This document shows positions 6,540 to 23,181 of a stretch of DNA of 32,657 nucleotides, piece after piece. Location: assembly GCA_018607685.1 (NCBI GenBank), contig JABBBA010000322.1, positions 1-32,657 on the forward strand, given 5' to 3'. Below the pieces are notes generated by a model that searched no databases, was not told the DNA's origin, and saw only the letters and a program-made list of their open reading frames with translations. Each line of letters opens with the position of its first letter. The first letter of the stretch is position 1. Position numbers and translations under genes: made by a program. Origin of the DNA: K189A clade bacterium. Its GTDB lineage: Bacteria > Pseudomonadota > Gammaproteobacteria > Pseudomonadales > Azotimanducaceae.

Positions 6540-6926
6540 TCAGTGCAGGTCCATGCTTGAGACTCTTCGGTGTTCCGGAACAAAGATATCGTCAAGGATG
6601 AGGTCTTTACTGCCGGTTCCTGACAGGCCTATCTGCCAGTTGTGCACAATGAATAGATTGGCCACCCAGCCAATGGAGCCACAGGCTGTTGCCAGCGTGC
6701 GGATGACTTCCGCCGCCGTATCGAAACCCAACTCAAATCCGCCAAACTGTCTGGGCTGCAGAATTTTGTGAAATTCCGCATCCCGAAATTCCTGTACGGT
6801 TTCATCAGAAAGACGTCGATTCTCTTCCGCTATCGGCGCCCTTTCACGCAACCCGGGCAACAACGCTTCGGCACGCGCAATCAACTCTGTCTGGTCTGGC
6901 ACCCGCTCTGCCTGCATTTGATTCAA
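6540..6926 (-). pseudogene. Internally deleted acyl-CoA dehydrogenase/HsaA-type flavoprotein remnant
   Basis: This 128-aa frame begins like flavin-dependent monooxygenases of the acyl-CoA dehydrogenase fold (HsaA/HpaB-C2 type): LPGLRERAPIAEENRRLSDE, then FGGFELGFDTAAEVI and ACGSIGWVANL. Directly after HNWQIGL it jumps to SGTGSKDLILDDIFVPEHR, a block normally found roughly 90 residues further on, after the FAD-contacting beta-domain. The missing segment appears deleted in frame. The whole C-terminal helical domain (about 170 residues) is also missing, because the frame stops after VSSMDLH, 4 nt from the end of the P450 gene. Without these parts it cannot be a working enzyme. It is divergent from the PPOX-family gene that starts at 7048. 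Confidence 0.72.
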
Positions 6927-7047
6927 TGCCGTGGCTAATCCTCTCGAAACTGTTATTGGTTAATGACTTGATAATATACTTGTCGGGTTCGTGAGCGAAA
7001 TCGATACATCGCATACCATACTCAGGCGAGGCCAAAGGAGATTGAAA

Positions 7048-7548
7048 ATGGATAGCAGCTTCAATTACGACGACGTGAGCCACTACACGCTTGAAGAAAA
7101 GGATGAACAGGCTCTGATAGACGCCCAGAACGAATGTACCTTCATGTGGAGCACAAAAGACGGCTGGCCAGTTGGTGTCATCATGTCCTATGTTTTTGAT
7201 CAAGGTTACTTCTGGCTCAGCGTCTCATCCCTGCGCGTTAGAGTGCAGGCAGTTGCACGGGAACCTCGCACCTCAATCTCCATCACCAGCAAAGGGTGCG
7301 GTATGGAAGCACCCTTAAGCCTTACCTACAAAGGAACCTGTGAAGTGCTCAGCGATCAGGAGACTGTAGGCTGGTTCCTGCCGGCTCTGGCAAAACGGTT
7401 ACGCGCGGGCGATGAGCAGGCACAGAAGGAATTTGTAAGGCTGAACAACACGCCTAATCGGCGTGTACTGAAATTCAAGCCGACTAAAAAGATCGGTTTC
7501 GATAGCCGAAAAATGCGTCAGGCGACACAGGATGCAGAAGAGCGTTGA
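7048..7548 (+). CDS. Pyridoxamine 5'-phosphate oxidase-family (PPOX) flavin protein
   Basis: About 166 aa with a split-barrel flavin-binding fold of the PPOX / F420-FMN class. It shows the early strand CTFMWSTKDGWPVGVIMSYVF, the middle strand YFWLSVSSLRVRVQAVAREPRTSISIT and the strand LTYKGTCEVL. The ATG at 7048 is preferred over an upstream GTG at 6991 because AAAGGAG lies 8-10 nt before it. The role is probably an FMN- or F420-dependent reductase, or a binding protein; such proteins often accompany catabolic islands. A truncated SDR gene begins 40 nt downstream on the same strand, so the two were probably once an operon. Family call firm, function open. Confidence 0.78.
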   Translation: MDSSFNYDDVSHYTLEEKDEQALIDAQNECTFMWSTKDGWPVGVIMSYVFDQGYFWLSVSSLRVRVQAVAREPRTSISITSKGCGMEAPLSLTYKGTCEVLSDQETVGWFLPALAKRLRAGDEQAQKEFVRLNNTPNRRVLKFKPTKKIGFDSRKMRQATQDAEER

Positions 7549-7588
7549 TTGTGGGCATCATTTACCAGGTAATAGTGAAAGGCCGACT

Positions 7589-7663
7589 ATGAATCTGGAA
7601 CTCAAAGGCAAACGCGCAATTGTTCTCGGCGGCAGCCTTCGCCATAGAAATAGAGAAGTGTGA
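7589..7663 (+). pseudogene. 5' fragment of a short-chain dehydrogenase gene
   Basis: The frame reads MNLELKGKRAIVLGGS and then runs into unrelated sequence ending in a stop at 7661-7663. LKGKRAIVLGGS is the standard first beta-strand and start of the glycine-rich cofactor loop of an SDR. The rest of the gene (about 235 residues) is missing, and the break coincides with the start of the IS91-like transposase piece near 7632. It follows the PPOX gene closely, as an operon partner would. Confidence 0.6.
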
Positions 7664-7727
7664 GAGATGTGGTGGCTAAGTAAAGATCATAGCCAGCATT
7701 GAGGACCCGGACGTTATCGAAAAGGTG
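7632..7727 (+). mobile_element. IS91-like transposase C-terminal remnant, left piece
   Basis: One frame reads AAFAIEIEKCERCGG, a stop (TAA at 7677-7679), then VKIIASIEDPDVIEKV. This matches the C-terminal zinc-finger-like part of IS91-family Y2 transposases, where C-x2-C-G-G is followed by an IAxIEDPxVI block. The in-frame stop and the missing N-terminal catalytic domain show it is dead. The match stops at 7727 and the sequence continues as the truncated GFA gene. The second piece at 11188 overlaps its last 29 nt and continues to the natural C-terminus. Confidence 0.7.
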
Positions 7728-7888
7728 ATGTTCGAATCAAGGAACCAGAGGTTTGGCGCGAACAGTCCACCTGTCGCTCTTTGGCAATCTCTACAGTGAC
7801 ATTGGAACATGAACAGCGGAAGTACATTAATTTCAAACTTAATGTCGCCGCAAGCGCATCGTCCGGTAATTGGTAGCGAGTTTTTCAT
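7676..7888 (-). pseudogene. GFA/CENP-V-family gene truncated at its 3' end
   Basis: The frame starts MKNSLPITGRCACGDIKFEI and carries the zinc-binding CHCRDCQRATGG motif of the GFA (glutathione-dependent formaldehyde-activating enzyme-like) family. After APNLWFLDSNI, at about residue 53, it crosses into DNA antisense to the transposase remnant (SITSGSSMLAMIFT is not GFA sequence). GFA proteins are usually about 130-150 aa, so more than half is missing, including later zinc ligands. The start has a plausible GAAGG Shine-Dalgarno and looks intact. The break is at about 7727, exactly at the end of the left 29-bp repeat. Confidence 0.68.
7698..7726 (+). repeat. 29-bp direct repeat, left copy
   Basis: Starts ATTGAGGACCCGGACG and ends at GAAAAGGT. 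It matches 11188-11216 at 27 of 29 positions (two G/A differences) in the same orientation. It encodes IEDPDVIEKV of the IS91-like transposase. Confidence 0.85.
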
Positions 7889-8102
7889 TGATTAACCTTC
7901 ACGTGATTTTCGGATTCTGTTCCTAAGGCCCAATCGGCCTACCTTGCGCCGGTCGATCAAGGCCCCGGCAATAACGTTTGGCCACCATCGCGGATACATT
8001 CGAGATCCGATAGTTGTTCGGGGGTGTAAGCTATGAGTGACCTCAATTTTCAATTCAATGAGATCACTATAATGCGAGTGAAGAATATCGGCATCTGCAG
8101 TG

Positions 8103-8134
8103 TCTTTTACTCCCCCGTCAAATGCCTCTACACT
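8103..8134 (+). promoter_or_regulatory. Promoter-like element shared with the second VOC gene
   Basis: The block TCTTTTACTC...CAAA...CTCTACACT is nearly repeated (TCTTTTCCTC...CAAAA...CTCTACACT) upstream of the paralogous VOC gene on the other strand at 21396-21426, at almost the same distance from the start codon. TACACT could be a -10 box and the TTTACT region a weak -35, giving a leader of about 30 nt. A separate perfect TATAAT sits at 8068-8073 without a good -35. Confidence 0.45.
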
Positions 8135-8172
8135 TCATGGGTATTTATCGGCTAGCAGCTGTGGAGAATTGA

Positions 8173-8697
8173 ATGGACAAGCCAACAGACAGAACGGTAT
8201 TTCAGAATGCGTGGGTGGTCGATGATATAGAAGTCGCCTGCCGAAAATGGGTGGATGAACTTGGTGTCGGCCCCTTTCATATCGCAGACTACACGCCCGA
8301 GACTTTCGACGAGATCACCTATCACGGGCAACCCTCGGAGCTCGCCATGAGAGTGGGTATTGCCCAGGCGGGTAATGTTCAAATCGAGTTGATCGAGCCG
8401 ATCAGCGAAGAATGTGCCTACCGCGACTCGGTCCCCAAAGGAACGATGGCCTTTCATCACATGTGCGTCTGGACGCTGGACTTTGAAGCTGATCACGCCT
8501 ACTTCGATAAACTCGGGTATCCGGCAGCCAATACCGGCAAGCTGGGCGATATCGAATTTGCCTATTTCGACACTCGCCCCTTACTCGGTTGCATGCTTGA
8601 GGTCGTCACCAAAGCCGACTCGGTGGTGCAGAACTTTGAGTCCTATAAAGAAATCGCAAAGAACTGGGACGGCAAGGATCCGATCCGATACCGATGA
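8173..8697 (+). CDS. VOC/glyoxalase-family protein
   Basis: A 174-aa protein of the vicinal-oxygen-chelate superfamily, with two beta-alpha-beta-beta-beta repeats: the first from FQNAWVVDDIEVACRKW to VQIELIEP, the second from FHHMCVWTLDFEADHAYF to GCMLEVV. Potential metal ligands are the glutamate in QIELIEP, a histidine in FHHMCVW and the glutamate in CMLEVV. VOC enzymes include extradiol dioxygenases, glyoxalases and epimerases; this length fits glyoxalase or methylmalonyl-CoA-epimerase-like types. TGGAGAA precedes the ATG. The stop overlaps the next gene by 4 nt, so it is co-translated with the SDR. It is a close paralogue of the gene at 20842-21360, sharing the N-terminus MDKPTDRT and the tail NWDGKDPIR. 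Substrate unknown. Confidence 0.85.
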   Translation: MDKPTDRTVFQNAWVVDDIEVACRKWVDELGVGPFHIADYTPETFDEITYHGQPSELAMRVGIAQAGNVQIELIEPISEECAYRDSVPKGTMAFHHMCVWTLDFEADHAYFDKLGYPAANTGKLGDIEFAYFDTRPLLGCMLEVVTKADSVVQNFESYKEIAKNWDGKDPIRYR

Positions 8698-9470
8698 GAG
8701 GAGAGCTTGACGAAAAGGTCATACTGATCACCGGAGCAACCTCCGGAATTGGTCTCGCAACTGCTCGGCATTTCTCTACTCTCGGGGCCTGCGTCGTCGG
8801 CGCCGCGCGTTCGCACGACAAGGGCCGAGAGTTTCTGGAACAGTTATCGGTGGATAATGCCAATGTTCGGTTCATTGCCACAGATGTCACTATCAATGAT
8901 CAAGTGAAACAAATGCTGGCCTTTGCCTTGGATGAATTTGGTCGCCTGGATTTTGCATTCAACAATGCCGGTATCTTTATCAAGGAACCGCTCTTGGACG
9001 AACACGAGGAAGATATCTGGGATACGGTGATGAGCTCCAATCTCAAAAGTGTTTACCGCTGCATGAAGCACGAGGTCAAGGCTATGCTGCAGTCAAAACC
9101 AGCCGGCGGGGTGATCATTAACAATGCCTCCATCGTCGGGCATCGCGGCTCTACAGCATCGGGTTTGGCCTACACCACCGCAAAACACGGCGTAATCGGC
9201 CTGACCAGACAAGCCGCTCTCAGCTACGTTGATCAAAATATTCGCATAAACGCTGTATCACCCGGGCCGACACTCACGGCCGCTACAAGCGCGGGATTAA
9301 GCGGGTCCGAGGAAGAAGTTACAGCTCGCCTCACATCCCTGAATCCAACAGGCAGGACTGTCCCTGCCGAGCAGATCGCAAAGACAGTCGCATTCTTGTG
9401 TTCTTCGGCGGCCAGCATGATCAACGGCCACGACATTCCTCTCGATGGAGGTCAACTGGCCAAGCTTTAA
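8694..9470 (+). CDS. Short-chain dehydrogenase/reductase
   Basis: A 258-aa classical SDR. It has the TGATSGIG cofactor loop near the N-terminus, an acidic D-V-T after beta-3, the NNAG motif, the serine in NNASIVG and the Y-T-T-A-K catalytic pair. A terminal DGGQL segment is typical of the family. Its ATG overlaps the VOC stop codon (ATGA), and a Rieske oxygenase follows after 35 nt. The three genes form an operon-like cassette. The most likely role is oxidation of a hydroxyl or diol product, or reduction of a ketone, made in the same pathway. Cofactor choice (NAD or NADP) is not certain. Confidence 0.92.
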   Translation: MRGELDEKVILITGATSGIGLATARHFSTLGACVVGAARSHDKGREFLEQLSVDNANVRFIATDVTINDQVKQMLAFALDEFGRLDFAFNNAGIFIKEPLLDEHEEDIWDTVMSSNLKSVYRCMKHEVKAMLQSKPAGGVIINNASIVGHRGSTASGLAYTTAKHGVIGLTRQAALSYVDQNIRINAVSPGPTLTAATSAGLSGSEEEVTARLTSLNPTGRTVPAEQIAKTVAFLCSSAASMINGHDIPLDGGQLAKL

Positions 9471-9505
9471 CGAGCGTCGTATTATTCTGCAAGGAGGCTA
9501 TCTCT

Positions 9506-10849
9506 ATGTCTGAAGCTATTAAAAAAGAAGGACCCGTGCCCTTCACCAAAATCACGGCCGAGCGCTATATCTCCAGCGACTATATGCAGCGAGAGCGCGA
9601 TCAGTTATGGGCTAAAACCTGGTTGGTTGCCGGCGTTTCACAGGACGTTGTTGAACCCGGAGACTTCTTTGTCTTCAACCTCGAACCTGAATCTATTATC
9701 GTGTCTCGATCAGAAGCTGGCGAGCTAAACGCTTTCTTTAATGTTTGTCAGCATCGTGGCGCTCGATTGTTGCTTACCAACGCCGGGGCGATGCAAACCT
9801 ACACCTGTCCTTATCACGGTTGGGCTTATAACAATGATGGTTCACTGTGCAACGTCCCGGACGAAGATCATTTCAGTCGTGGTATCCCGAAAGATAAACT
9901 CGCGCTGCAATCGCTACGCGTTGAGGATTGGGCTGGCGCAATTTGGGTTTGCATGGACCCAGACGCTCCCGGCCTGCAGGACTACCTTGGGCCCATCATC
10001 GATCTGATTGAACCCTACCGGCCTCATGATATGGCGTTAGTCGAAGACCAGACCTGCCATCTTGATTGCAACTGGAAGGCGGTGTTCGATAATTTTGGTG
10101 AGCTTTACCACGTTGAGCACATTCATCCTCAGCATGAATTGATTTTTGATTGCCCGACCTCCACTAACGAATTTTTCGACGGTGGCCACACCCGCGTGTT
10201 GATCGATGGCTTTACCGTCAACTCAAGACTGCCAATTCCCGATGATGTGCCGCCGACACAATGGGCACAAATGGAAACGCTCGGGTTAAAGAAAGAAGAC
10301 TATACAGGTCGAGTCCTGGACGTACGCCGGGATGTTCAACTCAAGAAACGGGAACTCGGTCCCGCGCTCGGTTATAACTATGATTTGCTCTCCGACGGTC
10401 AACTTTCAGACATTGTTCAATACAACATTTTCCCCAACGTTGTACTCGTACTGCAGCCGGAGGAATACTGGATCCTGCGCTCAAGGCCACACCCCACGGA
10501 TCCGAACAAATGTTACTGGGACAAGTTTGCGCTAAGGATGCTGCCTGATACCAGCATTCAGGAAAAAGCGACAGATAAGTTTCCGGCGTTGCAGAATCGG
10601 GCGAACGTATCGTTCAACCTCGATCAGACCTCCGACGGTACTGTACGACCGGAGCACGATGAGTTCGATCAGGAGGCCATTATCGCGGGTGAAAAAACCA
10701 TGACGATCACCCTTGATCAAGACATCCATCTCATTCGCGATGTACAAAAGGGAATGCACTCGCGGGGTTTTCGTGAAGCATGGCTAAACGACGATGAAGC
10801 GCGTGTTCAGCATTATCACAGCTGGATAGACCGTTACATGAGGGAGTAA
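9506..10849 (+). CDS. Rieske non-heme iron oxygenase, alpha subunit
   Basis: About 447 aa. The Rieske cluster ligands are C81-x-H83 (CQHRGARLL) and C101-x2-H104 (CPYHGWAY). The mononuclear iron site is DNFGELYHVEHIH with H202 and H207, and a C-terminal aspartate lies in DQDIHLIRDVQ. The start at 9506 has a perfect AAGGAGG 8 nt upstream; an earlier in-frame ATG at 9398 lies inside the SDR gene. Family members hydroxylate aromatic rings or demethylate and hydroxylate quaternary amines and related substrates, using electrons from a reductase or ferredoxin. No beta subunit or reductase is adjacent; the Rieske ferredoxin at 20537-20842 is the only candidate partner in view. It ends the VOC-SDR-Rieske cassette. 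Confidence 0.93.
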   Translation: MSEAIKKEGPVPFTKITAERYISSDYMQRERDQLWAKTWLVAGVSQDVVEPGDFFVFNLEPESIIVSRSEAGELNAFFNVCQHRGARLLLTNAGAMQTYTCPYHGWAYNNDGSLCNVPDEDHFSRGIPKDKLALQSLRVEDWAGAIWVCMDPDAPGLQDYLGPIIDLIEPYRPHDMALVEDQTCHLDCNWKAVFDNFGELYHVEHIHPQHELIFDCPTSTNEFFDGGHTRVLIDGFTVNSRLPIPDDVPPTQWAQMETLGLKKEDYTGRVLDVRRDVQLKKRELGPALGYNYDLLSDGQLSDIVQYNIFPNVVLVLQPEEYWILRSRPHPTDPNKCYWDKFALRMLPDTSIQEKATDKFPALQNRANVSFNLDQTSDGTVRPEHDEFDQEAIIAGEKTMTITLDQDIHLIRDVQKGMHSRGFREAWLNDDEARVQHYHSWIDRYMRE

Positions 10850-10858
10850 ACCGTTCCC

Positions 10859-11185
10859 CTACGCCGTTAACGCCTTGATTTCGTCGTCAGACAAACCCGC
10901 GATTTGTGCCGACTTGTAAATCGATGACCAGAGTTGATCATCCGGAGGGATACCGTGCTCGGATCTGACTAACATGGTTTCTCTCTCAGGATCACCGGGC
11001 AGCCTCACACGATCGTGACCTACCGCTGGCTGCGAGTCTCGCAGCCAGTCAAACATTCCTTCAACCTCGCGCTGAAAGGATTCAAGACCATCGAACACGT
11101 TCGGGTCAATGATGAGCTCCAGCATATGATTAATCGTGGCATTCTTTTGTTTCTCGACATTCTGCATGGTCCATTCTCCGGCGAG
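10859..11185 (-). pseudogene. C-terminal fragment of an Ldh2-type malate/lactate dehydrogenase
   Basis: Translation from 11185 gives LAGEWTMQ, then TINHMLELIIDPN, EVEGM and DRVRLPGDPERE, ending in a normal C-terminus. It aligns without gaps to the last ~110 residues of the Ldh2-family gene at 19462 (once that gene's frameshift is corrected), with roughly two-thirds identity by eye. Everything upstream, including the catalytic and NAD(P)-binding regions, is missing. The homology ends at about 11186, where the IS91-like transposase piece begins. The internal ATG at 11165 gives a 102-aa frame, but that would not be a functional enzyme. Confidence 0.75.
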
Positions 11186-11187
11186 CC

Positions 11188-11216
11188 ATTGAAGACCCAG
11201 ACGTTATCGAAAAGGT
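11188..11216 (+). repeat. 29-bp direct repeat, right copy
   Basis: Starts ATTGAAGACCCAGACG and ends at GAAAAGGT. Same orientation as 7698-7726, with two mismatches. It abuts the truncated Ldh2 fragment on its left and continues into the transposase C-terminus on its right. Confidence 0.85.
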
Positions 11217-11307
11217 ATTGAAGCATCCTGGGCTTGATGAGGCGTCACAGGCCAGTAACCGATCACCGCCAGAAGGTCTCTTCCCGCATTCGACCCAACT
11301 ATTCTGA
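11188..11307 (+). mobile_element. IS91-like transposase C-terminal remnant, right piece
   Basis: The frame reads IEDPDVIEKVLKHPGLDEA, then SNRSPPEGLFPHSTQLF and a stop at 11305-11307. The IEDPxVI block and the proline-rich PPxGLF tail are typical of the extreme C-terminus of IS91-family transposases. Only 39 codons remain. Its first 29 nt repeat the end of the left piece (7698-7726). Joined at that repeat, the two pieces give one uninterrupted transposase C-terminus apart from the TAA at 7677. Confidence 0.7.
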
Positions 11308-11356
11308 CGTCTGCTAACGCTGGTGGGGTCTAACTCGGCTTGGTTGCCGTTAATGG

Positions 11357-11769
11357 TCACGCTTTGATCGACGTCCGATCGGCGAGCGGTGGCGGAGCGG
11401 TTAATGTGGGCGTGAGTATGACGTCATAACTGTGAAGTAGTTGCTCAAGTCGGTCGTAGGTGCGGGACCGACTGATTGCATCGGCCTGTAAACGGACACC
11501 ATTAGTTGTGAACTTCTTTTCGTCTAATAGGCCTTGCAGAGCTAGCCCTAGACGTCTTTGTGCTTCTGTCGGCATCTGGCAGCGAGATTAGAAGCCGTCA
11601 TCTGCGTCGTAACACCAGGATCGAACGACGTTGGATCATCGGCGGCAACGTCTATGACGACACCCTGTTCAGCGATCTTATCGATGGCTTGCTCGACGAT
11701 AACTAAGTACTGAGCGTCAGCGGCGTTGCCTCCCATCGCAGGAACGAACAATGCGCGTCGACCATTCAT
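11357..11769 (-). pseudogene. Truncated and frameshifted amidase-signature family remnant
   Basis: Two overlapping frames are pieces of one amidase (GatA/AmiE-type). The first (from 11769) reads MNGRRALFVPAMGGNAADAQ and EQAIDKIAEQGVVIDV, then drifts off. The second picks up after a one-base shift near 11577 with PTEAQRRLGLALQGLL and the highly typical YDVILTPTLTAPPP. The N-terminal part with the Ser-Ser-Lys catalytic triad is missing, and the C-terminus ends early (LADRTSIKA) next to the transposase remnant. The fragment follows the sulfatase stop by 32 nt on the same strand, so an amidase may once have belonged to that operon. Confidence 0.65.
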
Positions 11770-11801: not shown

Positions 11802-14132
11802 TTATTGAGAACTTAACCCCGCTTCAAACCGACCCTTAATCTCAGCTTGCTTTACCTCAACGGTCGTTTCGGACAATCGCTCGAGAGTTACACCCACTAT
11901 GTCCCCAGTAAACGGGAAATTATGCGGATAGGGGCCAACGGGCGAACCTGTATCCCTGCCTACGTCAAATGTTTCACCGCTCATGGAGAAAATCACCGGA
12001 ACCGTTTTTTCTATTCTTTTCTCCTCCACCAGGACGCCGTCGATCAGCAGGGTCACTATGCCACCGGCGGCGAAACCGCCATCATGAAGGTACTCAACTA
12101 TGAGTTCGTGTTCACCTGCCCCAGGAGCCGCTTTCGATTCCAACAGGGTCAACTCATGACCAAACCAGTTATAGAGATAACTCGGTTTACCTTCTTCATT
12201 CAGGTAGAGACTCCAGCCAGCCATGTTGCCACCTTGACAGGCAATTACCCCATTTGCGGCACCTTCATTGATGATGATGTCAGCGGTAATTCTATGCGAC
12301 ACATTCTTGAGGTTAATCACCGAGGACTCAGGCATTCGAGTATGAACGGTGGTGTAGGTCATTTTAGTGTGCCCTTCCAGCGAATGTGGCACAGAGTAGT
12401 CACCGCTTCGTTTCGATGAAGCATCTCTTAGAGGATATATGCCATATTGTTCGGCCTCACTTTCAAACAGTGCGCGCAACTGTTTTAGTTTTTCTGGTTC
12501 CTGAGCCGCAAGGTTATGGCCCTGAGAGAAGTCGTTAGCGATGTTGTACAGCTCCCAATCCTCTTGGGAGCCATCAAACTCATACCCTGCAAAACGAATC
12601 CAGGGTAACCGGCCATGGAAGCACGAAGCGATCCAGCCGTCCTGATAGATCGCTCTGTTACCCAAAATTTCAAAATACTGTGTGCTGTGAGTACTCGGCG
12701 CATCAGCATTATCAAAGCTGTAAACCATGCTGGTGCCATGAACGGTATCCTGGGTGATTCCGTTGACCCGCTCCGGCGCATTGATTCCGGTCAGCTCGAG
12801 AATGGTGGGAAACAAATCTATGACGTGATGAAATTGTGTACGAAGCTCACCCTGCGACTTTATGGACCCCGGCCAGGAGATTGCCATTGCATTTCTCGTC
12901 CCCCCGAAATGTGAAGCCACCTGTTTCATCCATTGAAAGGGTGAATCCAAGGCCCACGCCCAACCTACATTAAAATGGTTCTCACATTTGTCGGTGCCGA
13001 AATCACCCATGTGATCGAGCAGCCACTGCGGATCTTCGTGGACACCATTTTGAAATGAAGGCGCACTCCAGGCGCCATGTACGGTGCCTTCGGCGGAAGC
13101 ACCGTTGTCACCCGTGAGATAAATAATCAGGGTTTCGTCAAAACAATCTATTGCGCTGAGACTATCAATAACGCGCTCTACCTGGGCGTCGGTATGCGCC
13201 ATGAAACCGGCAAAGACTTCCATTAACCGTGATGCAACCGGTTTGTATTCGTCAGGGTATTCGTCCCAGCTTGGAACCTCATCCGGACGTTCTGTCAGTT
13301 TGGTTCCAGGCGGGATAACACCTGATTCCAACTGACGTGCGTAAATCTCTTCTCTTAGCTGATCCCAACCAGCTTCAAACTGACCTTTAAATCGATCGCT
13401 CCACTCTGGCGCAACATGATGCGGTGCGTGGACCGCAGCCGGAGCAAAATAACAGAAAAAGGGTTTGTCCGGTGCGGATACTTTCTGTCTTGCGATCCAC
13501 TCGATGGCTTTGTCAGCGAGGTCTTCCGTCAGGTGATAATTGTCCTTGTCCAGGTGCGGCTCGATCGGGGTTGTCTGATCATAGACCGGCGGCTCCCAAT
13601 GCGATGCTTCGGCCCCGATGATCCCGTAAAAACGCTCGAAGCCCATCCCAGTTGGCCAACGGTCAAAAGGACCAGCCGGATTTTGCTCCCAGGACGGTGT
13701 TAAGTGCCACTTGCCAAAGCATCCCGTTGAATACCCACTTTGTTTCAGTATCTCGGCAATCGTCGCGGTTTCAGGTGGTATCGCGCTGTCATACGCAGGA
13801 AAACTGTTGGCGATCTCCGTAATGCCACCCATATGAACACTATGATGATTACGCCCCGTCAACAGCGAAGCTCTGGTTGGAGAACACAGCGCCGTGGTAT
13901 GGAATTGGTTGTATCGCAGTCCCGCCGCAGCCACTTTGTCGACGCCCGGGGTTGGTATAGGACCACCAAAAGTACTGCAGGTACCAAACCCTACATCATC
14001 CAGCATCACCAACAATATGTTCGGCGCACCCTTGGCTTTCTTTTCCAGGGAAAGACGTCTGGGTTCCGATTCACTGTGCAGCCGATTGACCTTTCCTGTA
14101 AAAGGAGGCGTTGGATTCGGAATACTACTCAT
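11802..14132 (-). CDS. Sulfatase (arylsulfatase-type, formylglycine-dependent)
   Basis: A 776-aa sulfatase of the alkaline-phosphatase superfamily. The C-x-P-x-R signature is Cys83 in ALCSPTRASLLTGR, the residue converted to formylglycine by an FGE-type maturase, none of which is in this window. Metal-binding aspartates lie in MLDDVGFG (45-46), with a later TGDNGAS block. The extra C-terminal ~200 residues form a beta-rich domain seen in long arylsulfatases. No signal peptide is visible, so it may be cytoplasmic. The ATG overlaps the stop of the MBL-fold alkylsulfatase-like gene (ATGA), so the two are translationally coupled. It would hydrolyse sulfate esters, but the organic part is unknown. 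Confidence 0.93.
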   Translation of the reverse strand: MSSIPNPTPPFTGKVNRLHSESEPRRLSLEKKAKGAPNILLVMLDDVGFGTCSTFGGPIPTPGVDKVAAAGLRYNQFHTTALCSPTRASLLTGRNHHSVHMGGITEIANSFPAYDSAIPPETATIAEILKQSGYSTGCFGKWHLTPSWEQNPAGPFDRWPTGMGFERFYGIIGAEASHWEPPVYDQTTPIEPHLDKDNYHLTEDLADKAIEWIARQKVSAPDKPFFCYFAPAAVHAPHHVAPEWSDRFKGQFEAGWDQLREEIYARQLESGVIPPGTKLTERPDEVPSWDEYPDEYKPVASRLMEVFAGFMAHTDAQVERVIDSLSAIDCFDETLIIYLTGDNGASAEGTVHGAWSAPSFQNGVHEDPQWLLDHMGDFGTDKCENHFNVGWAWALDSPFQWMKQVASHFGGTRNAMAISWPGSIKSQGELRTQFHHVIDLFPTILELTGINAPERVNGITQDTVHGTSMVYSFDNADAPSTHSTQYFEILGNRAIYQDGWIASCFHGRLPWIRFAGYEFDGSQEDWELYNIANDFSQGHNLAAQEPEKLKQLRALFESEAEQYGIYPLRDASSKRSGDYSVPHSLEGHTKMTYTTVHTRMPESSVINLKNVSHRITADIIINEGAANGVIACQGGNMAGWSLYLNEEGKPSYLYNWFGHELTLLESKAAPGAGEHELIVEYLHDGGFAAGGIVTLLIDGVLVEEKRIEKTVPVIFSMSGETFDVGRDTGSPVGPYPHNFPFTGDIVGVTLERLSETTVEVKQAEIKGRFEAGLSSQ

Positions 14133-15886
14133 GAACGAGCACCGGCGTCAGTAGTGCTCAAACCTGGCGAATCGAAACAATCAAAGAACGCGAGCACCGC
14201 TTCGCTATCCGTTGCAGAAGCGTCGCCGCCTGATAACAGTTCAACCAATTTTTGTTTACCCCCCAAAACTTCTGCCCACTGCGAGTGACGGATGCTTAGT
14301 GAGAGGTCAAATGACTCACCTGTTGTAGGTACTGCAACCTGGTTACGAATATGTAACCCCGCACTAGTGCCATCGTCGAACTCAATGCGCAGCGACTGAT
14401 TAAGATCACCGGCGACATCGGGCTTCAACAGCACCTTAAGTGTTGTGACTGACTGACTGGCGGTTTGAGATCGAACTTCCGCCACACGGAAACGGTGGCC
14501 GCGAAACCGCTCAAGGTCCAACGACCCTTCAAGCTCTAGTGCTCTGGTTAAGCACCAGTTGCGAACGTTTGCTGAAGTTGTCGAGCGAGCAATGCCTTTT
14601 AGACCAGCGGCCAAACGGTTGCGATCCTCTTGGTCACCTGCATCGGCTCGGCCCCGTTTATTAAGATCACCCCGTACGAGCCAGGTTGCCAGCTCAATGG
14701 CCCAGCGAAAATCCATCGACTCCAATGCCGTATCAATCCTTGATCGCACGGCCGGTTTCCCGCCGAATCCCTCAATGAGTTTTTGCGCGCGATCTGGCGA
14801 AGGTGTTGGAAACAATTTCGATTCATCTTCATCAAACCAGCCAAACAGGCCGCTGTAGACTTGACGGACATGATGTTCAACTACTCCGTACAACTGCGCG
14901 GTCATGTAGTGCTCTGAAAAATGTTCCGGCAGTTTCACAAAAGAGACGAGTTCATCGAGCGTTAAGCCAAGATTGGCACCACGAACGGTTTGATCCCAAA
15001 TAAACTGAATGGCATCTCTATAGTTTGTGATCGATTTCAATATCTCACTCGATCCTTCGACAGGCGGTCCGTGTGCTCCCAGCAAATAGTCGGCGCCTAG
15101 CTCAGCCATTTCATCCAAACCTTTCAATAGGATTCGTGGATCCCGGTACTCCTCTCCTCTGATTGCAAAGACATTAAAAAGTGCTGGCCACAACAAATTG
15201 TTAATCGCAAGGCTCAGCTCCGGAAACCAAATGGTGATCGAGTCCGTCGCATCAGAAGGCGCCGGGAGGCACTCAACTTTGAGCCCTGCGATCTCAAACT
15301 CAGCCCGTTCATCAAAGGTATGTTGCGCTGGCAGATGACCAGGGGTAAACGGCGCATGCGCAGGATTGCGCAGGAATTTGCCCAAGCCGACATTGACGAT
15401 GCCATCCGGACCGTCGGGCGGCAGCATCACAGCAAATTGATGAACCAGTCCACGCGCTCCCCGCGGTCCTACTTCACCGCCGAAGCGGCGCAGGTTCTCT
15501 TCAATGCCGCTGTGTCCATAGATAGGAAGATCATCTAATCCTGAAGCCTTAACTACAGCGGTTGTACCGCCCACATAGTGAAAGTGTGTATAGATACAAG
15601 CAACAATAGGTGCATTTGTCTCTTTTCTGATGGCCGTGAGCGCAGCATCCATTTCCTCGACGCACTCCCCCGTGTCAATAACAATCAATCCGGCGGGACC
15701 TTCTACGAATGACTGATTCGATAAACCATTGCCCACATAGGTCCAGGCTTTTTCACCAACACGATAGAGTTTTTCTTCCAGCCTTTTACTGTGTTCAATA
15801 GTCGCCGGGTGGGCAAGCTGGCCATTTGGGCCTGTGCCAGTTTGGCCCGGTAAAAACGAGTCGGGAATGCGAAGGAAGTCAGTCAC
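14129..15886 (-). CDS. MBL-fold alkyl sulfatase-like hydrolase with variant metal motif
   Basis: A 585-aa protein with the layout of SdsA1/BDS1 alkylsulfatases. An N-terminal metallo-beta-lactamase domain (about 45-290: WTYVGNGLSNQSFVEG, IDTGEC, YTHFHYVGGT, GAHGPPVEG) is followed by an alkylsulfatase dimerisation domain (about 330-460: YSGLFGWFDED, MDFRWAIELATWLV) and an SCP2-like C-terminal domain. The canonical H-x-H-x-D-H zinc motif is H101-F-H103-Y-V-G here, lacking the Asp-His pair, so metal binding must differ. It starts at GTG with an AAGAGAAG Shine-Dalgarno, 13 nt after the LLM gene, and overlaps the sulfatase start. A role on alkyl sulfates or a related ester is inferred from family and context. 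Confidence 0.85.
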   Translation of the reverse strand: MTDFLRIPDSFLPGQTGTGPNGQLAHPATIEHSKRLEEKLYRVGEKAWTYVGNGLSNQSFVEGPAGLIVIDTGECVEEMDAALTAIRKETNAPIVACIYTHFHYVGGTTAVVKASGLDDLPIYGHSGIEENLRRFGGEVGPRGARGLVHQFAVMLPPDGPDGIVNVGLGKFLRNPAHAPFTPGHLPAQHTFDERAEFEIAGLKVECLPAPSDATDSITIWFPELSLAINNLLWPALFNVFAIRGEEYRDPRILLKGLDEMAELGADYLLGAHGPPVEGSSEILKSITNYRDAIQFIWDQTVRGANLGLTLDELVSFVKLPEHFSEHYMTAQLYGVVEHHVRQVYSGLFGWFDEDESKLFPTPSPDRAQKLIEGFGGKPAVRSRIDTALESMDFRWAIELATWLVRGDLNKRGRADAGDQEDRNRLAAGLKGIARSTTSANVRNWCLTRALELEGSLDLERFRGHRFRVAEVRSQTASQSVTTLKVLLKPDVAGDLNQSLRIEFDDGTSAGLHIRNQVAVPTTGESFDLSLSIRHSQWAEVLGGKQKLVELLSGGDASATDSEAVLAFFDCFDSPGLSTTDAGARS

Positions 15887-16736: not shown

Positions 16737-16809
16737 GCACGGTTCCTCTTTTATTTCCTGGAGCAGGAGGGAAGTACACCATTATGGCGAGTGGCTGTCG
16801 AGATGATGA

Positions 16810-18285
16810 TCAGGTTCCGCAGAATGTCTGGCGTACGACCTCTTCTGCTCTGGGTTTCTTCGCGAACCGGATGTCTACACCCGTCAGGTCGTATGGGTTC
16901 GCCAGATTATCGACCAGTTCGTTGAACAGTTCGAAATTTCCCTCGGTAGAAGCAGCCACAATTGATTCTTCGATCAGGTGATTACGAGGAATGATGGCAG
17001 GGTTGGTGGCTAACATGTTCTGCTGTCGAGTAGGGTTATCTTCCGCATCGCATCGGGTCTTCCATCGAGCCATCCAGTCGTCGAATACAGAAGGGAAACC
17101 GGCTAGCGAGCTGACGCTGGCCGCTGGCTCAGTACCTGACAATTCGGATAAGCGGCGGAATGACAATGTGAAATCCAGTTGATTGGCTTCCAGAAGATCG
17201 AGGAAATCTTTTGCCAGTGTTTCATCTTCATCCCGCGGTGTCGCTAATCCAAGTTTTTGACGCTGTCCGGAGATATTGGCCTCAAGAAAGTAAGCCGGAA
17301 ATTTGTCCAGAGCGTCCTTGGCTATTTCAATCGCGTCTTCTTCCTTGTCTGCAATGACAGGCACCAGCGCCTGGGCAAGACAGGCCATGTTCCAGTGAGC
17401 AATTCCTGGCTGGTTACGATACGCATAGCGACCACCATGATCGATGGAACTAAAAACAGTCTCCGGGTTATAGGTATCCATAAAGGCGCAGGGACCGTAG
17501 TCGATGGTTTCGCCGGATAACAATACATTGTCAGTATTCATCACACCGTGAATGAAGCCGACCATCTGCCAATTGGCCACCAGTTTCGCCTGTGCCTGCA
17601 TAACGTTGTCCAGCAGCGCCAGCGCTCTCGTGTGCGGGTCGGCGCCACCGTCGACTGCGTCGGGATAATGTCGTTCAAGAACATGGTCAACCAGCAGGCC
17701 TAGAGCTTCATTGTCCTCCCGGGATCCAAAAAACTGAAAGGTACCAATTCGAATATGGCTTTTTGCAACGCGTGCTAACACGGCGCCGGGTAAAGTCTCT
17801 TCTCGATAGACAGGTTCCCCTGTTGTAACAGCGGCCAGCGATCGACTGGTCGGGACGCCGAGTGCCGCCATCGCTTCGCTGACAATGTACTCCCTTATGA
17901 CCGGTCCGAGGGGCGCTCGTCCATCTCCCATTCTTGAATAAGGAGTTTGCCCGGAACCTTTCAGTTGTAAGTCGTATCTCTCTCCGTCCGTTCCAATAAG
18001 TTCACCCAGAAGAATAGCGCGGCCGTCCCCCAGTTGCGGGTTCCAGGATCCGAACTGATGACCGGCGTAAACAGTAGCGATGGGGTCGGCGCCTTCGGGT
18101 ACCAGGTTCCCCGCCATGGTTGCGATACCGTCCTCGGACAATAGCCAGGCTGGATCGATACCGAGTAATCGTGCCAGTTCAGGATTGGCTCGAATAAGTT
18201 CGGGCTTTGCCACGCTCGTGGGTGATTGCCGGGAATAGAATCGTTCCGGTAGTTGGACGTAGCTGTTGTTGAAAGGCACACTCAT
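16810..18285 (-). CDS. selO: Protein adenylyltransferase SelO (YdiU)
   Basis: A 491-aa pseudokinase-fold protein that AMPylates Ser/Thr/Tyr residues of target proteins in redox stress, as established for E. coli and human SelO. Conserved blocks visible are VYAGHQFGSWNPQLGDGRAI, LQLKGSGQTPYSRMGDGRA, GVPTSRSLA, VARVAKSHIRIGTFQFF, the catalytic loop HGVMNTDNVLLSGETIDYG and PCAFMD. The C-terminus is FCGT, with Cys489 at the position where eukaryotic SelO carries selenocysteine. Length matches the family. It is divergent from the flavoprotein gene at 18322, with only 36 nt between starts, and lies 73 nt upstream of the LLM gene with no clear terminator between. It is the only housekeeping-type gene here. 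Confidence 0.96.
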   Translation of the reverse strand: MSVPFNNSYVQLPERFYSRQSPTSVAKPELIRANPELARLLGIDPAWLLSEDGIATMAGNLVPEGADPIATVYAGHQFGSWNPQLGDGRAILLGELIGTDGERYDLQLKGSGQTPYSRMGDGRAPLGPVIREYIVSEAMAALGVPTSRSLAAVTTGEPVYREETLPGAVLARVAKSHIRIGTFQFFGSREDNEALGLLVDHVLERHYPDAVDGGADPHTRALALLDNVMQAQAKLVANWQMVGFIHGVMNTDNVLLSGETIDYGPCAFMDTYNPETVFSSIDHGGRYAYRNQPGIAHWNMACLAQALVPVIADKEEDAIEIAKDALDKFPAYFLEANISGQRQKLGLATPRDEDETLAKDFLDLLEANQLDFTLSFRRLSELSGTEPAASVSSLAGFPSVFDDWMARWKTRCDAEDNPTRQQNMLATNPAIIPRNHLIEESIVAASTEGNFELFNELVDNLANPYDLTGVDIRFAKKPRAEEVVRQTFCGT

Positions 18286-18321
18286 GGGCGCGACTTTATC
18301 ACACTAAGGAATGGGCAATTG

Positions 18322-19446
18322 GTGAAATCAGCACAGGTAATCGGAGATCTGGAAAGCATTGCGGCAGGATTTGCTGAAGATGTCATCTCCAGGCAAAAAC
18401 GCAGGCAGCTCGACCCTGATGATTTTGAGCAGCTGAAAGGCGCGGGTTTTCTGCTGACGGGTGTTCCTGCAGATCAGGGGGGGCTATGGAATGGTCCTGC
18501 GGGTTCTGCGCGTTTGTACGCTGAGATGGTTCGAACGATTGCGCACGGCGATCCCAGTGTTGCCCTGGTGGCGTCAATGCATCCGGCGGTCACGGGGTTC
18601 TTTCTGGGCGTTGAATCAGTAGATGACGAAGCTGAGGCATGGAGTGCTCAGCGACAATGGGTAATTGAAAGCGCTCAAGACCATTGGTGGGGAACGGTGA
18701 CTTCAGAACCTGGATCCGGCGGCGACATCATGAAGACCCGGTCAATGGCGGTGCCTGAGAAAGACCATTTCCTTATTACGGGAGATAAACACTTTGGGTC
18801 CGGTTCCGGGCAGGCAGACTTCATGATTACAACGGCAAAGGTCGAAGGGTCAGACTTGCCGGAACTTTTCTTCCTGCAAAATAAGGGTGAGCCCTGGGAT
18901 GGATCAACCGGCTGCAGGATGACGGTTGAGTGGGATGGTATCGGGATGTCATCGACCCAATCTCACGCCTTTCGTTTTGAAAACTTCCCGGCAACCAAAG
19001 CAGCGTCAAGAGAGGTGCTGACCAGGGTGGCGCCGATAGGCAGCCAGATCAGCAATATGTTGTTTGCAGGGGTTGTCCTTGGGGTTGCTGACAACGCGAT
19101 GGTTTTTGCCCGGGGGAAGCTTGACGGAAAAGAAGATGGCATGCGGGCGTTTGAAAAAACCGAGTGGGTAAGATGCCAGAATGAACTTTGGCTTGCTGAG
19201 CAGGCTTATGAGGGGGCTTTGCGCGCCATCGAGGCAGAAGACAAAAAGGCGCACATAACGGCTGTTCGTTGCAAGATTGTCTGCGCAGAGCTGATAGAGA
19301 CTGCGCTGTCCAGAATAGGCAAGGTGGTAGGCGGGGCAAGCTTTTCAAAAGCGATGCCGCTCGCACAATGGACCCAGGATGTGAAAGCTCTTGGGTATCT
19401 TCGGCCGCCATTGCCTCTGGCATACGATCAGTTGCTTGGTGAGTAG
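18322..19446 (+). CDS. Acyl-CoA dehydrogenase-like flavoprotein
   Basis: About 375 aa with the three-domain acyl-CoA dehydrogenase fold. The N-terminal helices are followed by FLLTGVPADQGGLW and a VRTIAHGDPSVALV segment. The FAD/substrate beta-domain includes GTVTSEPGSGGDIMKTR and ITGDKHFGSGSGQADFMIT. The C-terminal helical bundle ends with GGASFSKAMPLAQWTQDVKAL. The long frame extends back to a TTG at 18253 inside selO. GTG at 18322 or TTG at 18319, just after AAGGA, are the realistic starts. The usual catalytic glutamate near the C-terminus is not obvious, so it could be a monooxygenase of the HsaA/DszC type rather than a dehydrogenase. The Ldh2-type gene follows after 15 nt. Confidence 0.85.
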   Translation: MKSAQVIGDLESIAAGFAEDVISRQKRRQLDPDDFEQLKGAGFLLTGVPADQGGLWNGPAGSARLYAEMVRTIAHGDPSVALVASMHPAVTGFFLGVESVDDEAEAWSAQRQWVIESAQDHWWGTVTSEPGSGGDIMKTRSMAVPEKDHFLITGDKHFGSGSGQADFMITTAKVEGSDLPELFFLQNKGEPWDGSTGCRMTVEWDGIGMSSTQSHAFRFENFPATKAASREVLTRVAPIGSQISNMLFAGVVLGVADNAMVFARGKLDGKEDGMRAFEKTEWVRCQNELWLAEQAYEGALRAIEAEDKKAHITAVRCKIVCAELIETALSRIGKVVGGASFSKAMPLAQWTQDVKALGYLRPPLPLAYDQLLGE

Positions 19447-19461
19447 GATGGGAGAAATGCG

Positions 19462-20391
19462 ATGTTAATTACTGAGGGCCGGCTCCGGGAATTTGCAAAA
19501 AAAATCTTTGAGCAACTAGGCGCGACCGAGGACCGTGCCTGGCAGGTCGCAGAACACCTGGTTGAAGCGAACCTGAAAGGACATGACTCGCACGGTGTTG
19601 GCATGATTCCTAATTACGTAAATGGAGCTCGCAAAGGACATCTGCACGTCAATGAGGATGCAGAGTTGGTGGTAGATAAGGGCGCAGTGCTTCTCGTGGA
19701 CGGCCATTTCGGTTTTGGCCAGGTCGTGGCAAAACAGGCAACGCAGATGGGGATTGAGCGCGCGAAACAGATTGGAATGGCCTGTGTAGGCTCAAAGAAT
19801 AACTACCACATCGGTCGTGTTGGAACCTATGGAGAGCAATGTGCCCGGGAGGGTCTGGTATCAATCCATTTTGTTAATGTGGTTGGTCACTCGCCCTTTG
19901 TTTCGCCCTGGGGTGGCCGGGATAAAAGAATGCAGACGAATCCGTTTTGTTGCGCTATTCCCACCGCCGGTGACCCGATTGTGCTCGATATGGCCACAAG
20001 CGCGATTGCGCTGGGCAAAGCTCGCGTGGCGAGAATGAAAGGAGTAGCCGTGCCCGAGGGCTCTGTGTATGACGCCGAGGGCCAGCCGTCAACTGATCCT
20101 AATGTGCTCGAGCAGGGCGGGTCCCTTGCGCCCTTTGGTGAGCATAAGGGTTATGGGCTGGCGCTTGTCTGTGAACTGCTCGGCGGTGGGCTAGCGGGGG
20201 AGTGGACAATGCAGGATGTCGACAGGCAAACCGACATGACGATTAATCATATGCTGGAGTTCATTATCGACCCGAACCTGTTCGGTGGCCTGGAGGCCTT
20301 TCAGGAAGAAGTGGAGGGCATGTCACGTTGGTTGCGGGAGTCCGAGCCGGCTACCGGTAATGACAGGGTCAGGTTGCCGGGAAGAACCTGA
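19462..20391 (+). CDS. Ldh2-family malate/L-lactate dehydrogenase, frameshifted near the C-terminus
   Basis: A Ldh2/MDG-type NAD(P)-dependent 2-hydroxyacid dehydrogenase (malate, lactate or ureidoglycolate class). The catalytic-histidine block HDSHGVGMIPNYVNG, KNNYHIGRVGTY, VGHSPFVSPWGGRDKRM, TNPFCCAIPT, VLDMATSAIALGKARVA and APFGEHKGYGLAL are all present. The frame ends early at RLPGRT (309 aa) because of one extra A near 20384. The expected RLPGEPERE continues in the next frame to 20518, which would restore about 353 aa, the normal family length. The partial paralogue at 10859-11185 has the intact C-terminus and shows the correct reading. The start has GGGAGAA, 15 nt after the flavoprotein gene. 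Confidence 0.87.
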   Translation: MLITEGRLREFAKKIFEQLGATEDRAWQVAEHLVEANLKGHDSHGVGMIPNYVNGARKGHLHVNEDAELVVDKGAVLLVDGHFGFGQVVAKQATQMGIERAKQIGMACVGSKNNYHIGRVGTYGEQCAREGLVSIHFVNVVGHSPFVSPWGGRDKRMQTNPFCCAIPTAGDPIVLDMATSAIALGKARVARMKGVAVPEGSVYDAEGQPSTDPNVLEQGGSLAPFGEHKGYGLALVCELLGGGLAGEWTMQDVDRQTDMTINHMLEFIIDPNLFGGLEAFQEEVEGMSRWLRESEPATGNDRVRLPGRT

Positions 20392-20518
20392 GCGGGAGTC
20401 TATGAGTGAGAGAACCGCAAACGGAATTCCATTGGATGATCGATCCTGGGATTCGATTGTTAAGGCTGCCCAGGTTGCCGGGATGCCTCTCGATACAATT
20501 ACGTCGCTAACACAATGA
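20385..20518 (+). pseudogene. Out-of-frame C-terminal tail of the Ldh2-type gene
   Basis: In the frame shifted by one base, the sequence reads EPERESMSERTANGIPLDDR, then WDSIVKAAQVAGM and ends ITSLTQ. It aligns directly to the C-terminal tail of the Ldh2 fragment at 10859-11185 (DPERETM, HGIPPDDQLW, YKSAQIAGL). This shows that about 45 residues were lost from the upstream frame through a +1 shift, either a real mutation or an assembly error. Confidence 0.75.
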
Positions 20519-20536
20519 GCTTGCCTTTGACTCAAC

Positions 20537-20842
20537 TCATCCGTCGGTGGCAATAATTAGCTCGTTGCCGTCTTCACGCACCGTATAGCTCGCGATATCC
20601 AGAAAGGCTGGTCCCCCCAGGCATTTGCCGGTGGTAACGTCGAACCTGGCTCCATGGAGTGGGCAGGTAATCGTTGTGCCCCTGAGTCTTCCCTTGGACA
20701 GAAGTACTCGAGCGTGAGAGCAGATGTCGGACACCGCATGATACTGCCCCGCGATTTTGCATAGCAGGACGTGTTGGCCGTCCTCTTTCAATGCAATAGA
20801 TTCCCCATCTTCCAGGGACTGGCTTACTCTTATTTCTGACAT
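20537..20842 (-). CDS. Rieske-type [2Fe-2S] ferredoxin
   Basis: A 101-aa soluble Rieske protein like the ferredoxins of naphthalene and biphenyl dioxygenases. Cluster ligands are C41-x-H43 (ICSHARVLL) and C60-x2-H63 (CPLHGARFD). It carries single electrons from a reductase to a terminal oxygenase. The ATG overlaps the VOC stop (TAATG), so the two are translated together. No oxygenase or reductase adjoins it; the only Rieske oxygenase in the window is at 9506-10849, next to the VOC paralogue. It could also serve one of the P450s, though these normally use a different ferredoxin type. Confidence 0.92.
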   Translation of the reverse strand: MSEIRVSQSLEDGESIALKEDGQHVLLCKIAGQYHAVSDICSHARVLLSKGRLRGTTITCPLHGARFDVTTGKCLGGPAFLDIASYTVREDGNELIIATDG

Positions 20843-21360
20843 TAGCGAATTGGATCCTTACCATCCCAGTTTTGTGCCGCTTCGGCAATTTCTGCGAATC
20901 TTGCGACGGTTCCTTCGTTCTTTGTGACAACCTCAAGCATGCACCCCATCAAAGGGCGTGTATCAAAGTAAGCGAAGTCTATGTGGCGCACCTTGCCCGT
21001 ATTAGCGGCGGCATAACCCAGGCTTTCCATGTATTTGAGGTCTGCTTCGAAATCAAGCGTCCAGACACACATATGGTGAAATCCCAGCTGACCTTCAGGG
21101 ACGCTGTCACGATACGCGCATCTGTCCGTCGTTGGTTCGATCAGTTCAATCTGGACATTGCCTGCCTGTGCCACAGCCACTTTCATCGACAGCTCCGATG
21201 GCTCTCCCCGGTAGGTAATTTTTTCAAAGGTGCCAGGTGTGTAGTCAGTGAGGAAGAAAGGTCCGATGCCAAGTTCGGTCACCCATTTCATGCAGGCCGA
21301 TTCGATGTCGGGAACAACCCAGGCGTTTTGGAAAATTGTTCGATCGGTTGGTTTGTCCAT
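20842..21360 (-). CDS. VOC/glyoxalase-family protein, paralogue of the 8173 gene
   Basis: A 172-aa VOC-superfamily protein with the same two-repeat layout as the gene at 8173-8697: FQNAWVVPDIESACMKW to VQIELIEP, then FHHMCVWTLDFEADLKYM to GCMLEVV. The metal-ligand candidates are conserved. The two proteins align almost without gaps and share the ends MDKPTDRT and NWDGKDPIR. Here the partner gene is a Rieske ferredoxin instead of an SDR and oxygenase. A promoter-like element is conserved upstream of both paralogues. Probably the same reaction on the same or a related substrate. Confidence 0.86.
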   Translation of the reverse strand: MDKPTDRTIFQNAWVVPDIESACMKWVTELGIGPFFLTDYTPGTFEKITYRGEPSELSMKVAVAQAGNVQIELIEPTTDRCAYRDSVPEGQLGFHHMCVWTLDFEADLKYMESLGYAAANTGKVRHIDFAYFDTRPLMGCMLEVVTKNEGTVARFAEIAEAAQNWDGKDPIR

Positions 21361-21395
21361 GTCCGGTAAGTGTTTGCTGGTTGAGCGAGCATTCG

Positions 21396-21426
21396 AGTGT
21401 AGAGAATTTTGCCTGTGAGGAAAAGA
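21396..21426 (-). promoter_or_regulatory. Promoter-like element of the second VOC gene
   Basis: On the minus strand, TCTTTTCCTC, then CAAAA and CTCTACACT, closely match the block upstream of the first VOC gene (8103-8134). TACACT would be the -10 box, with a leader of about 30 nt. Conservation between paralogues is the main support, since the -35 region is weak. Confidence 0.45.
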
Positions 21427-21472
21427 GGGTTGGACATATGGGCGTTCGCTAACTGCCTCTCAAAACATTGTG

Positions 21473-21500
21473 GTGACAGCGACCAGGTTCGTACTATAGT
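21473..21500 (+). promoter_or_regulatory. Sigma-70-like promoter of the SnoaL-like gene
   Basis: GTGACA (-35, 5 of 6 matches) and TATAGT (-10, 5 of 6) are separated by 16 bp. Transcription would start about 21507, leaving a leader of about 27 nt before the GTG at 21534 with its GGAG site. Confidence 0.5.
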
Positions 21501-21533
21501 GCTGGTTCGATTCAGCAACTTTTGGAGTTGAAG

Positions 21534-22034
21534 GTGGGCTACACGCCGGGTCAGCTGTCAGATATTGAACTTATAAGAGATGTTGCCAAACGCTATTGTC
21601 GAGGCGTAGACCGGCTCGACGAAGCAGAGATGAAATCAGCCTACTGGCCGGATGCGACAGATGATCACGGTACTTTCGTGGGGAACGCCTGGGAGTTTGC
21701 AGAACACTGTATGGTTGGTCACCTGAAATGGCGATCCACGAATCACTGCATCTTTAATCATTTGATCGAACTGGATGATAATGGTGTTTATGCGCGGGGT
21801 GAAATCTACAACGTAAGCTATCTGCTGCAAAAGGAAGCGGACGTGCTGGATACCTGGCACGGGCGTTACCTGGACCTGTACGAAAAGAGAGATGATGAAT
21901 GGCGCATACTCGAGCGGGTCTGCGTGCATGAATACACAAAAACCGAATCAGTTTCCCCAATGCAAATTGATGCCGCGAGATTCAGGCAGGGTGAGTTCGA
22001 CAGACCGGGCGAAGGGCGGCAGATAGGGCCATAG
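21534..22034 (+). CDS. SnoaL-like (NTF2-fold) protein
   Basis: About 166 aa with a SnoaL_4/NTF2-like cone fold: N-terminal helices (DIELIRDVAKRYCRGVDRLD), the YWPDATDDHG strand, and FNHLIELDDNGVYARGEIYNVSY and GRYLDLYEKRDDEWRILERV strands. Such proteins act as dehydratases, isomerases, cyclases, or small subunits of ring-hydroxylating oxygenases. The start is set by GGAG at 21524-21527, which places GTG 21534 at ideal spacing; a TTG at 21522 overlaps the Shine-Dalgarno. It is divergent from the VOC/ferredoxin pair with its own promoter. A role in the same catabolic scheme is plausible but not shown. Confidence 0.82.
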   Translation: MGYTPGQLSDIELIRDVAKRYCRGVDRLDEAEMKSAYWPDATDDHGTFVGNAWEFAEHCMVGHLKWRSTNHCIFNHLIELDDNGVYARGEIYNVSYLLQKEADVLDTWHGRYLDLYEKRDDEWRILERVCVHEYTKTESVSPMQIDAARFRQGEFDRPGEGRQIGP

Positions 22035-22062
22035 TTAGTAAAAAGGGGTTAGTTAAAAGGGG
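22034..22062 (+). repeat. Two tandem copies of a 15-nt element
   Basis: GTTAGTAAAAAGGGG is followed immediately, sharing one G, by GTTAGTTAAAAGGGG, just after the SnoaL-like stop codon. One mismatch. Function unknown; too short to call a regulatory site. Confidence 0.6.
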
Positions 22063-23150: not shown

Positions 23151-23181
23151 AGCGGACGTTGGCCCACTGATTTTCCGGGTC

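Follow-up and report, generated by a model that had tools for sequence, protein, structure and literature searches.

The stretch of DNA analysed here (the window) comprises all of contig C141 (JABBBA010000322.1; 32,657 nt) of a metagenome-assembled genome (MAG) from a K189A clade bacterium of the Azotimanducaceae (3.45 Mb in 450 contigs, 82.6% complete). Between two fragments of an IS91/ISCR-type insertion sequence (IS) it carries about 3.46 kb (7727-11186) of a diverged operon that encodes a Rieske oxygenase, and about 9 kb from this insert the same window holds the native operon, from which the oxygenase gene is missing. The features of the insert and of the two IS pieces are as follows, with incomplete genes marked by a prime; relatives mentioned below belong to the 57 other genomes that were searched for matches to the window.

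7634-7726, plus strand: left IS91/ISCR transposase fragment, internal, with an in-frame TAA at 7677 (nhmmer 7636-7724; translation)
7697-7726, plus strand: left copy of the direct repeat, 30 nt (repeat search)
7727-7888, minus strand: GFA-family gene (GFA'), N-terminal half, cut at the IS junction (Pfam GFA, E 8.5e-14, profile 2-50 of 115)
7926-8034, minus strand: SnoaL-like gene (SnoaL') with an internal deletion, its ends fused (tblastn with the native SnoaL protein)
8173-8697, plus strand: VOC (glyoxalase-type) gene, open frame (Pfam Glyoxalase_4)
8694-9470, plus strand: short-chain dehydrogenase (SDR) gene, open frame (Pfam adh_short_C2)
9506-10849, plus strand: Rieske oxygenase alpha-subunit gene, open frame (Pfam Rieske, Ring_hydroxyl_A)
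10859-11185, minus strand: Ldh_2 (malate/L-lactate dehydrogenase) gene (Ldh'), C-terminal third, cut at the IS junction (Pfam Ldh_2, profile 248-332)
11186-11361, plus strand: right IS91/ISCR fragment, comprising the transposase C-terminus with its stop and some of the 3' tail, but no right end (nhmmer)
11187-11216, plus strand: right copy of the direct repeat, 30 nt (repeat search)

The two copies of the direct repeat are identical at 28 of 30 positions, with a longest internal exact match of 17 nt (by eye), and about 2e-6 such repeat pairs are expected by chance; the first-pass annotation, made from the letters alone, had described 29 nt with two mismatches, of which the mismatches stand and the length becomes 30 nt. 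An IS profile of 53 aligned rows from other loci (window loci left out; many rows represent one copy twice) matched the left piece at 7636-7724 (model 55-143, E 3e-22) and the right piece at 11186-11361 (model 115-290, E 1.5e-48). The pieces are therefore overlapping neighbours of one transposase C-terminus, not parts of different transposases, and G004:C33, for example, has both parts in one contiguous copy (28-bp overlap). Their reading frames agree, with 7726 and 11216 both being second codon bases (counted). Deletion of the intervening DNA had been proposed to restore one continuous C-terminus up to its stop; neighbouring parts in a common frame are indeed what would meet, but the TAA at 7677-7679 interrupts the left piece and the joined frame would therefore be a pseudogene. 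Similarly, the right piece does contain the natural stop at which it had been thought to end, but runs on to about 11343-11361. Continuation of the left piece past 7726 in diverged form was also considered and ruled out, the IS profile having no match in 7721-8172 at E 10.

An intact transposase related to these pieces (L065 in G024, 485 aa) matched Pfam Y2_Tnp (113.4 bits) and Zn_Tnp_IS91 (73 bits) and, among the NCBIfam models, IS91 (134.7, cut-off 125) and ISCR clade Ia (560.7, under the cut-off of 925); it is an IS91-family protein with an HUH/Y2 transposase and a Zn-binding domain, whose nearest model is ISCR clade Ia. The window pieces cover the C-terminal part of the transposase only: the 63-aa part of G004:C33 that matches them falls at 450-494 of 509 in the ISCR clade Ia model (E 3.1e-11) and matched no Pfam family. 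The right end of the element is absent from both pieces. On many copies a common right end is seen ~205 nt past the equivalent of window position 11300, and at least 14 of the 45 IS matches listed outside the window (best 11 candidates per genome; BLAST ends approximate) stop there, at query 434-439, a lower bound because some copies with diverged tails also end at this point. The query copy continues through the common right end; the window pieces stop at query 148 and 271.

The missing right end bears directly on the proposal of the first-pass annotation that the cassette was captured by one-ended transposition, that is, carried along beside an IS91/ISCR element. In its accessible part, PMC3189936 describes IS91 transposition as starting at the right end and finishing at the left end or a look-alike, and recognises a one-ended product by an intact right end together with a target-like tetranucleotide at the other end; the behaviour of ISCR elements is believed to match that of IS91 (PMC13393415, accessible part). 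The cassette does lie immediately 5' of the right IS piece, where we would expect to find DNA mobilised by transposition past the terminator, and the same part of PMC3189936 reports that IS801 mobilises neighbouring DNA. However, one-ended transposition is unsupported because the right end, essential in the model, is lacking from both pieces; in addition, the ends of the insert do not match element ends, and most IS801 fragments are judged in that text to be rearrangement products. We consider this explanation very improbable. The IS801 fragments described there for Pseudomonas syringae resemble the window pieces in being short, truncated at either or both ends and located beside genes; here, by contrast, the pieces occur in an uncultured gammaproteobacterium, the right end is absent from both, and together they form one C-terminus around a metabolic cassette.

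Within the insert, VOC, SDR and Rieske oxygenase are three open frames, as had been annotated, but this cassette is flanked by the truncated GFA', the shortened SnoaL' and the truncated Ldh', and both edges of the insert fall inside genes (GFA' and Ldh'). At the left edge the GFA profile match extends about one codon into the repeat, and at the right edge the likeness of Ldh' to relatives ends at 11185. The order VOC-SDR-Rieske-Ldh is found at the native locus of G002 and the order VOC-ferredoxin-Rieske-Ldh in G001, G004, G005 and G012, and from this shared gene order the insert is a piece of the same operon type. Its Rieske-Ldh' DNA is 71-72% identical to that of G012, G001, G004 and G005, compared with 78-84% for the native-operon genes of the same window, and Ldh' shares 73% (64 aa) and 53% (43 aa) protein identity with the window's native Ldh. 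The insert is thus a diverged version of the genus's own SnoaL-VOC-SDR-Rieske-Ldh operon. In an unrooted tree of 14 oxygenases the window copy was split from those same four relatives with 99/98 support, its exact place within the tree lacking resolution; a VOC tree was mostly unsupported and was left unused. Oxygenase relatives are encoded at 14 public loci, 8 of which, at 75-83% identity, are labelled as Gammaproteobacteria, Pseudomonadales or the OM182 clade. When 390 genomes of the order were searched (limit 1e-180, too strict; best 4 candidates per genome; one other genome of the genus among those listed), the oxygenase was found in its own genome only, among the matches listed. Solved structures gave 29 distinct sequences that match mainly the Rieske half, and no substrate is inferred from them.

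Differences between the inserted genes and their counterparts accumulate at third codon positions (positions 1/2/3: 69/44/256 for the Rieske oxygenase against G012, 369 in total; 83/60/167 for SDR against G002; 32/27/104 for VOC against G016), as they also do in the native VOC against G012 (14/7/61). This third-position excess is consistent with purifying selection on the inserted genes, as far as codon patterns can indicate it. GFA' has distant homologues only, in 16 of the 57 other genomes (top identity 53%; 46% for the match with the best E-value); its parent was not found in those genomes, and no GFA homologue was present in 28 examined stretches from relatives.

Campbell-type integration, also raised by the first-pass annotation, would have a circle bearing the cassette and an IS piece recombine with a resident IS remnant. 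The direct repeats that flank the insert and the agreeing frames suit such an event, but the homology is only 30 nt long, and in the circle 30 nt of IS would already have had to link Ldh' to GFA'. Moreover, there is no replication or integrase gene among the genes identified in the insert, and all 966 matches to the oxygenase among 72,556 plasmid records are below 60% identity. Integration of this kind is possible, yet unneeded, and we regard it as improbable.

The native operon lies in a part of the window that is collinear, with gaps, from 16770 to 28786 with G012 (where the fetched stretch ends) and to 31646 with G004. Its features are:

19462-20518, plus strand: native Ldh_2 gene with a frame shift near 20383 (comparison with relatives)
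20513-20534, strand not assigned: scar at the missing native Rieske oxygenase gene, overlapping the Ldh stop (G012 alignment)
20537-21360, minus strand: native Rieske ferredoxin and VOC genes (Pfam; alignment to relatives)

Between the native Ldh and ferredoxin genes G012 has 1,465 bp, including the oxygenase gene, where the window has 22 bases. The next-best homologue in the genome, with all 34 candidates scored, is only 39% identical to the inserted oxygenase; since the native gene is absent, no close copy other than the inserted one was therefore found in this MAG, which is 82.6% complete. In xenologous or paralogous displacement a gene of an operon is replaced by a diverged copy elsewhere. 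What we find in the window is of that kind: the native Rieske oxygenase is lost, and a diverged, conserved homologue is present with operon partners 9 kb away. It differs in that no donor was identified for the window cassette and in that two relatives (G014 and G008) also carry the oxygenase off its native place.

Two simpler rearrangements were rejected. The native oxygenase was not simply relocated, as the native genes are closer to those of relatives than the cassette is, and the cassette brought its own Ldh piece. An inversion by way of the two Ldh copies (inverted repeat 10995-11187 / 20189-20381) was ruled out because the copies are paralogues (73% and 53% protein identity) with a 64-residue overlap. 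Apart from its frame shift, which marks either a pseudogene or a sequence error, the native Ldh_2 gene reads to its normal end. At 19434-19480 the window is without 3.2-4.0 kb that four relatives carry between the acyl-CoA dehydrogenase and Ldh genes.

On balance we favour, with moderate confidence, an illegitimate joining of the ~3.46-kb diverged operon fragment into an already dead internal IS91/ISCR fragment, with duplication of 30 bp. Insertion into one IS91-type remnant, as first annotated, is the better reading because both pieces come from the same element, their frames agree and both repeat copies have a G at position 29, where A stands in all 17 of the other resolved copies (leaving aside one copy with an N and any copy in which more than 6 repeat positions are lacking). 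The fragment 7727-11186 would have been joined into the dead transposase fragment within a zone of gene scraps between two conserved blocks, and the 30 bp of IS may have been duplicated through a staggered break or by template switching during replication. The oxygenase genes would then have been kept under selection as their flanks decayed, and the native oxygenase 9 kb away would have been lost, perhaps in that order, leaving the inserted one as the only close copy found. Illegitimate junctions are reported to show 3-10 bp of microhomology (PMC3240628, accessible part); at the right junction the Ldh of relatives (..GGCCAG/GCC, the slash marking the junction) and the IS (..AGCCAG/CATTG) share a few bases (by eye). 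Homology-facilitated illegitimate recombination, as presented in that part of PMC3240628, joins foreign linear DNA at 3-10 bp of microhomology. It generally deletes recipient DNA, whereas the window shows a 30-bp duplication instead, and it uses homology at one end, whereas the window is without long homology.

Several observations weigh against such a single joining. The empty site was seen in no genome, and we thus infer the insertion from its product; because the GFA parent was not found, the left junction is not comparable for microhomology. The shared G is one base only, and identity at 28 of 30 positions is unremarkable: the right repeat is matched at 29 of 30 by G004:C33 and at 28 of 30 by two other copies. 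The native locus is without the oxygenase in G014 and G008 also, where the gene lies elsewhere with SDR, and G016, G015 and G003 have VOC at the native locus and no close oxygenase there; as loss at this locus also occurs in relatives, gain and loss need not be linked. Finally, the genus is rich in IS fragments, with several often found on a single contig, and two separate fragments could therefore flank the cassette.

Under this last alternative the pieces would be independent IS91 fragments from different copies, separately trimmed, and the 30-nt overlap would have arisen by chance where the transposase is conserved. The repeat does lie in a well conserved part, in which copies from other species are equally similar, and 5 of the 45 IS matches listed besides the window's two begin inside the 30-nt overlap, so that an end-to-start fit is uncommon, but not rare, for an unrelated fragment. 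Neighbouring IS matches on one contig amounted, among those listed, to 7 pairs, 5 of them within 10 kb (window pair counted), and all 7 are in direct orientation (G001:C276, G001:C446, G009:C173, G024:C71, G005:C288 and the window). For the other 4 close pairs, however, the end of the first piece is never the start of the second, and the position-29 G is confined to the two window copies. We therefore regard two independent fragments as a rather unlikely account, though not a far-fetched one.

The surroundings of the insert are themselves disrupted, and the features on either side are:

7042-7570, plus strand: PNPOx-like gene (7042-7548) plus the last part of the conserved left block (Pfam PNPOx_N)
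7589-7633, plus strand: N-terminal scrap of an SDR gene (family by eye; translation, too short for Pfam)
11357-11587, minus strand: amidase C-terminal remnant (hand-counted coordinates; Pfam Amidase; translation)

The left block, made up of an acyl-CoA dehydrogenase remnant (ACAD') and PNPOx, matches four relatives at 79-81% DNA identity up to 7536 or 7548, and synteny breaks at about 7548-7570 (likeness to 7570 by eye). In 5 of the 6 relatives with a PNPOx match, the next gene is of one conserved type, the exception being G027. The SDR scrap (7589-7637) is 80% identical to G025:C136 (E 8.7e-4), and amidase-like sequence (Pfam E 0.0012; 18.4 bits, under the cut-off of 27; profile 347-385 of 445) replaces the IS from about 11360. 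In all, scraps of six genes, IS included, lie between 7548 and about 11800, and the site falls between blocks that lie on different contigs in four relatives. That separation, together with the fragmentation of this MAG into 450 contigs and the repetitive nature of IS copies, is what would be expected had the assembly wrongly joined unrelated stretches at short IS repeats. We find such an artefact hardly credible, as the longest exact match within the repeat, 17 nt, is short for assembly, other gene scraps and deletions are located at a distance from the IS, and there is no G+C step at the junctions.

In the 57 other genomes (best 5 candidate stretches per genome), no match among those listed extends across the left junction, and those that pass the right one do so by 6 nt at most: Ldh matches overrun it by 1-2 nt at most and two IS matches start 6 nt to its left. 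None of these genomes was seen to carry the exact arrangement, whose presence in relatives as ancestral gene order would, according to the first-pass annotation, have refuted an insertion. The two junction patterns had 0 matches in viral_contigs, which says little.

The arrangement is explained by known kinds of processes and amounts to ordinary genome reshuffling. Even so, a single contig here displays a diverged, conserved operon piece together with loss of the native gene, and it carries the caution that IS pieces beside a cassette do not prove that the IS moved it. Dead IS91 fragments might act in this genus as recurrent landing sites for foreign operon pieces, the diverged oxygenase having taken over before the native gene was cleanly deleted, a wider claim that we find quite doubtful. 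The IS profile matched no IS91 C-terminal piece in 16-18 kb around the displaced oxygenases L048 (G014:C11), L050 (G008:C41) and L051 (G013:C1), which counts against a general IS91 link. Should IS fragments turn out to be places where joining recurs, the scars could be used to trace how genes turn over in such marine bacteria. Literature on OM182 or on Rieske oxygenases with IS elements yielded nothing informative.

At the same three loci (L048, L050 and L051) the SDR-Rieske oxygenase pair stands off the conserved operon, a unit that seems to relocate repeatedly in the genus. Elsewhere in the window, an acyl-CoA dehydrogenase remnant at 6540-6926 has an internal deletion of ~250 bp relative to relatives, and the sulfatase and metallo-beta-lactamase-fold pair at 11802-15886 is also found together in G010, G008 and G006; G012 has the second gene of this pair only, on contig C8, among the matches listed. 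Four of the IS91 copies (L060, L064, L066 and L067) carry short G+C-rich GGGCGGCC- or CGCGGCCCG-like inserts in the transposase C-terminus (by eye), possibly a small repeat element.

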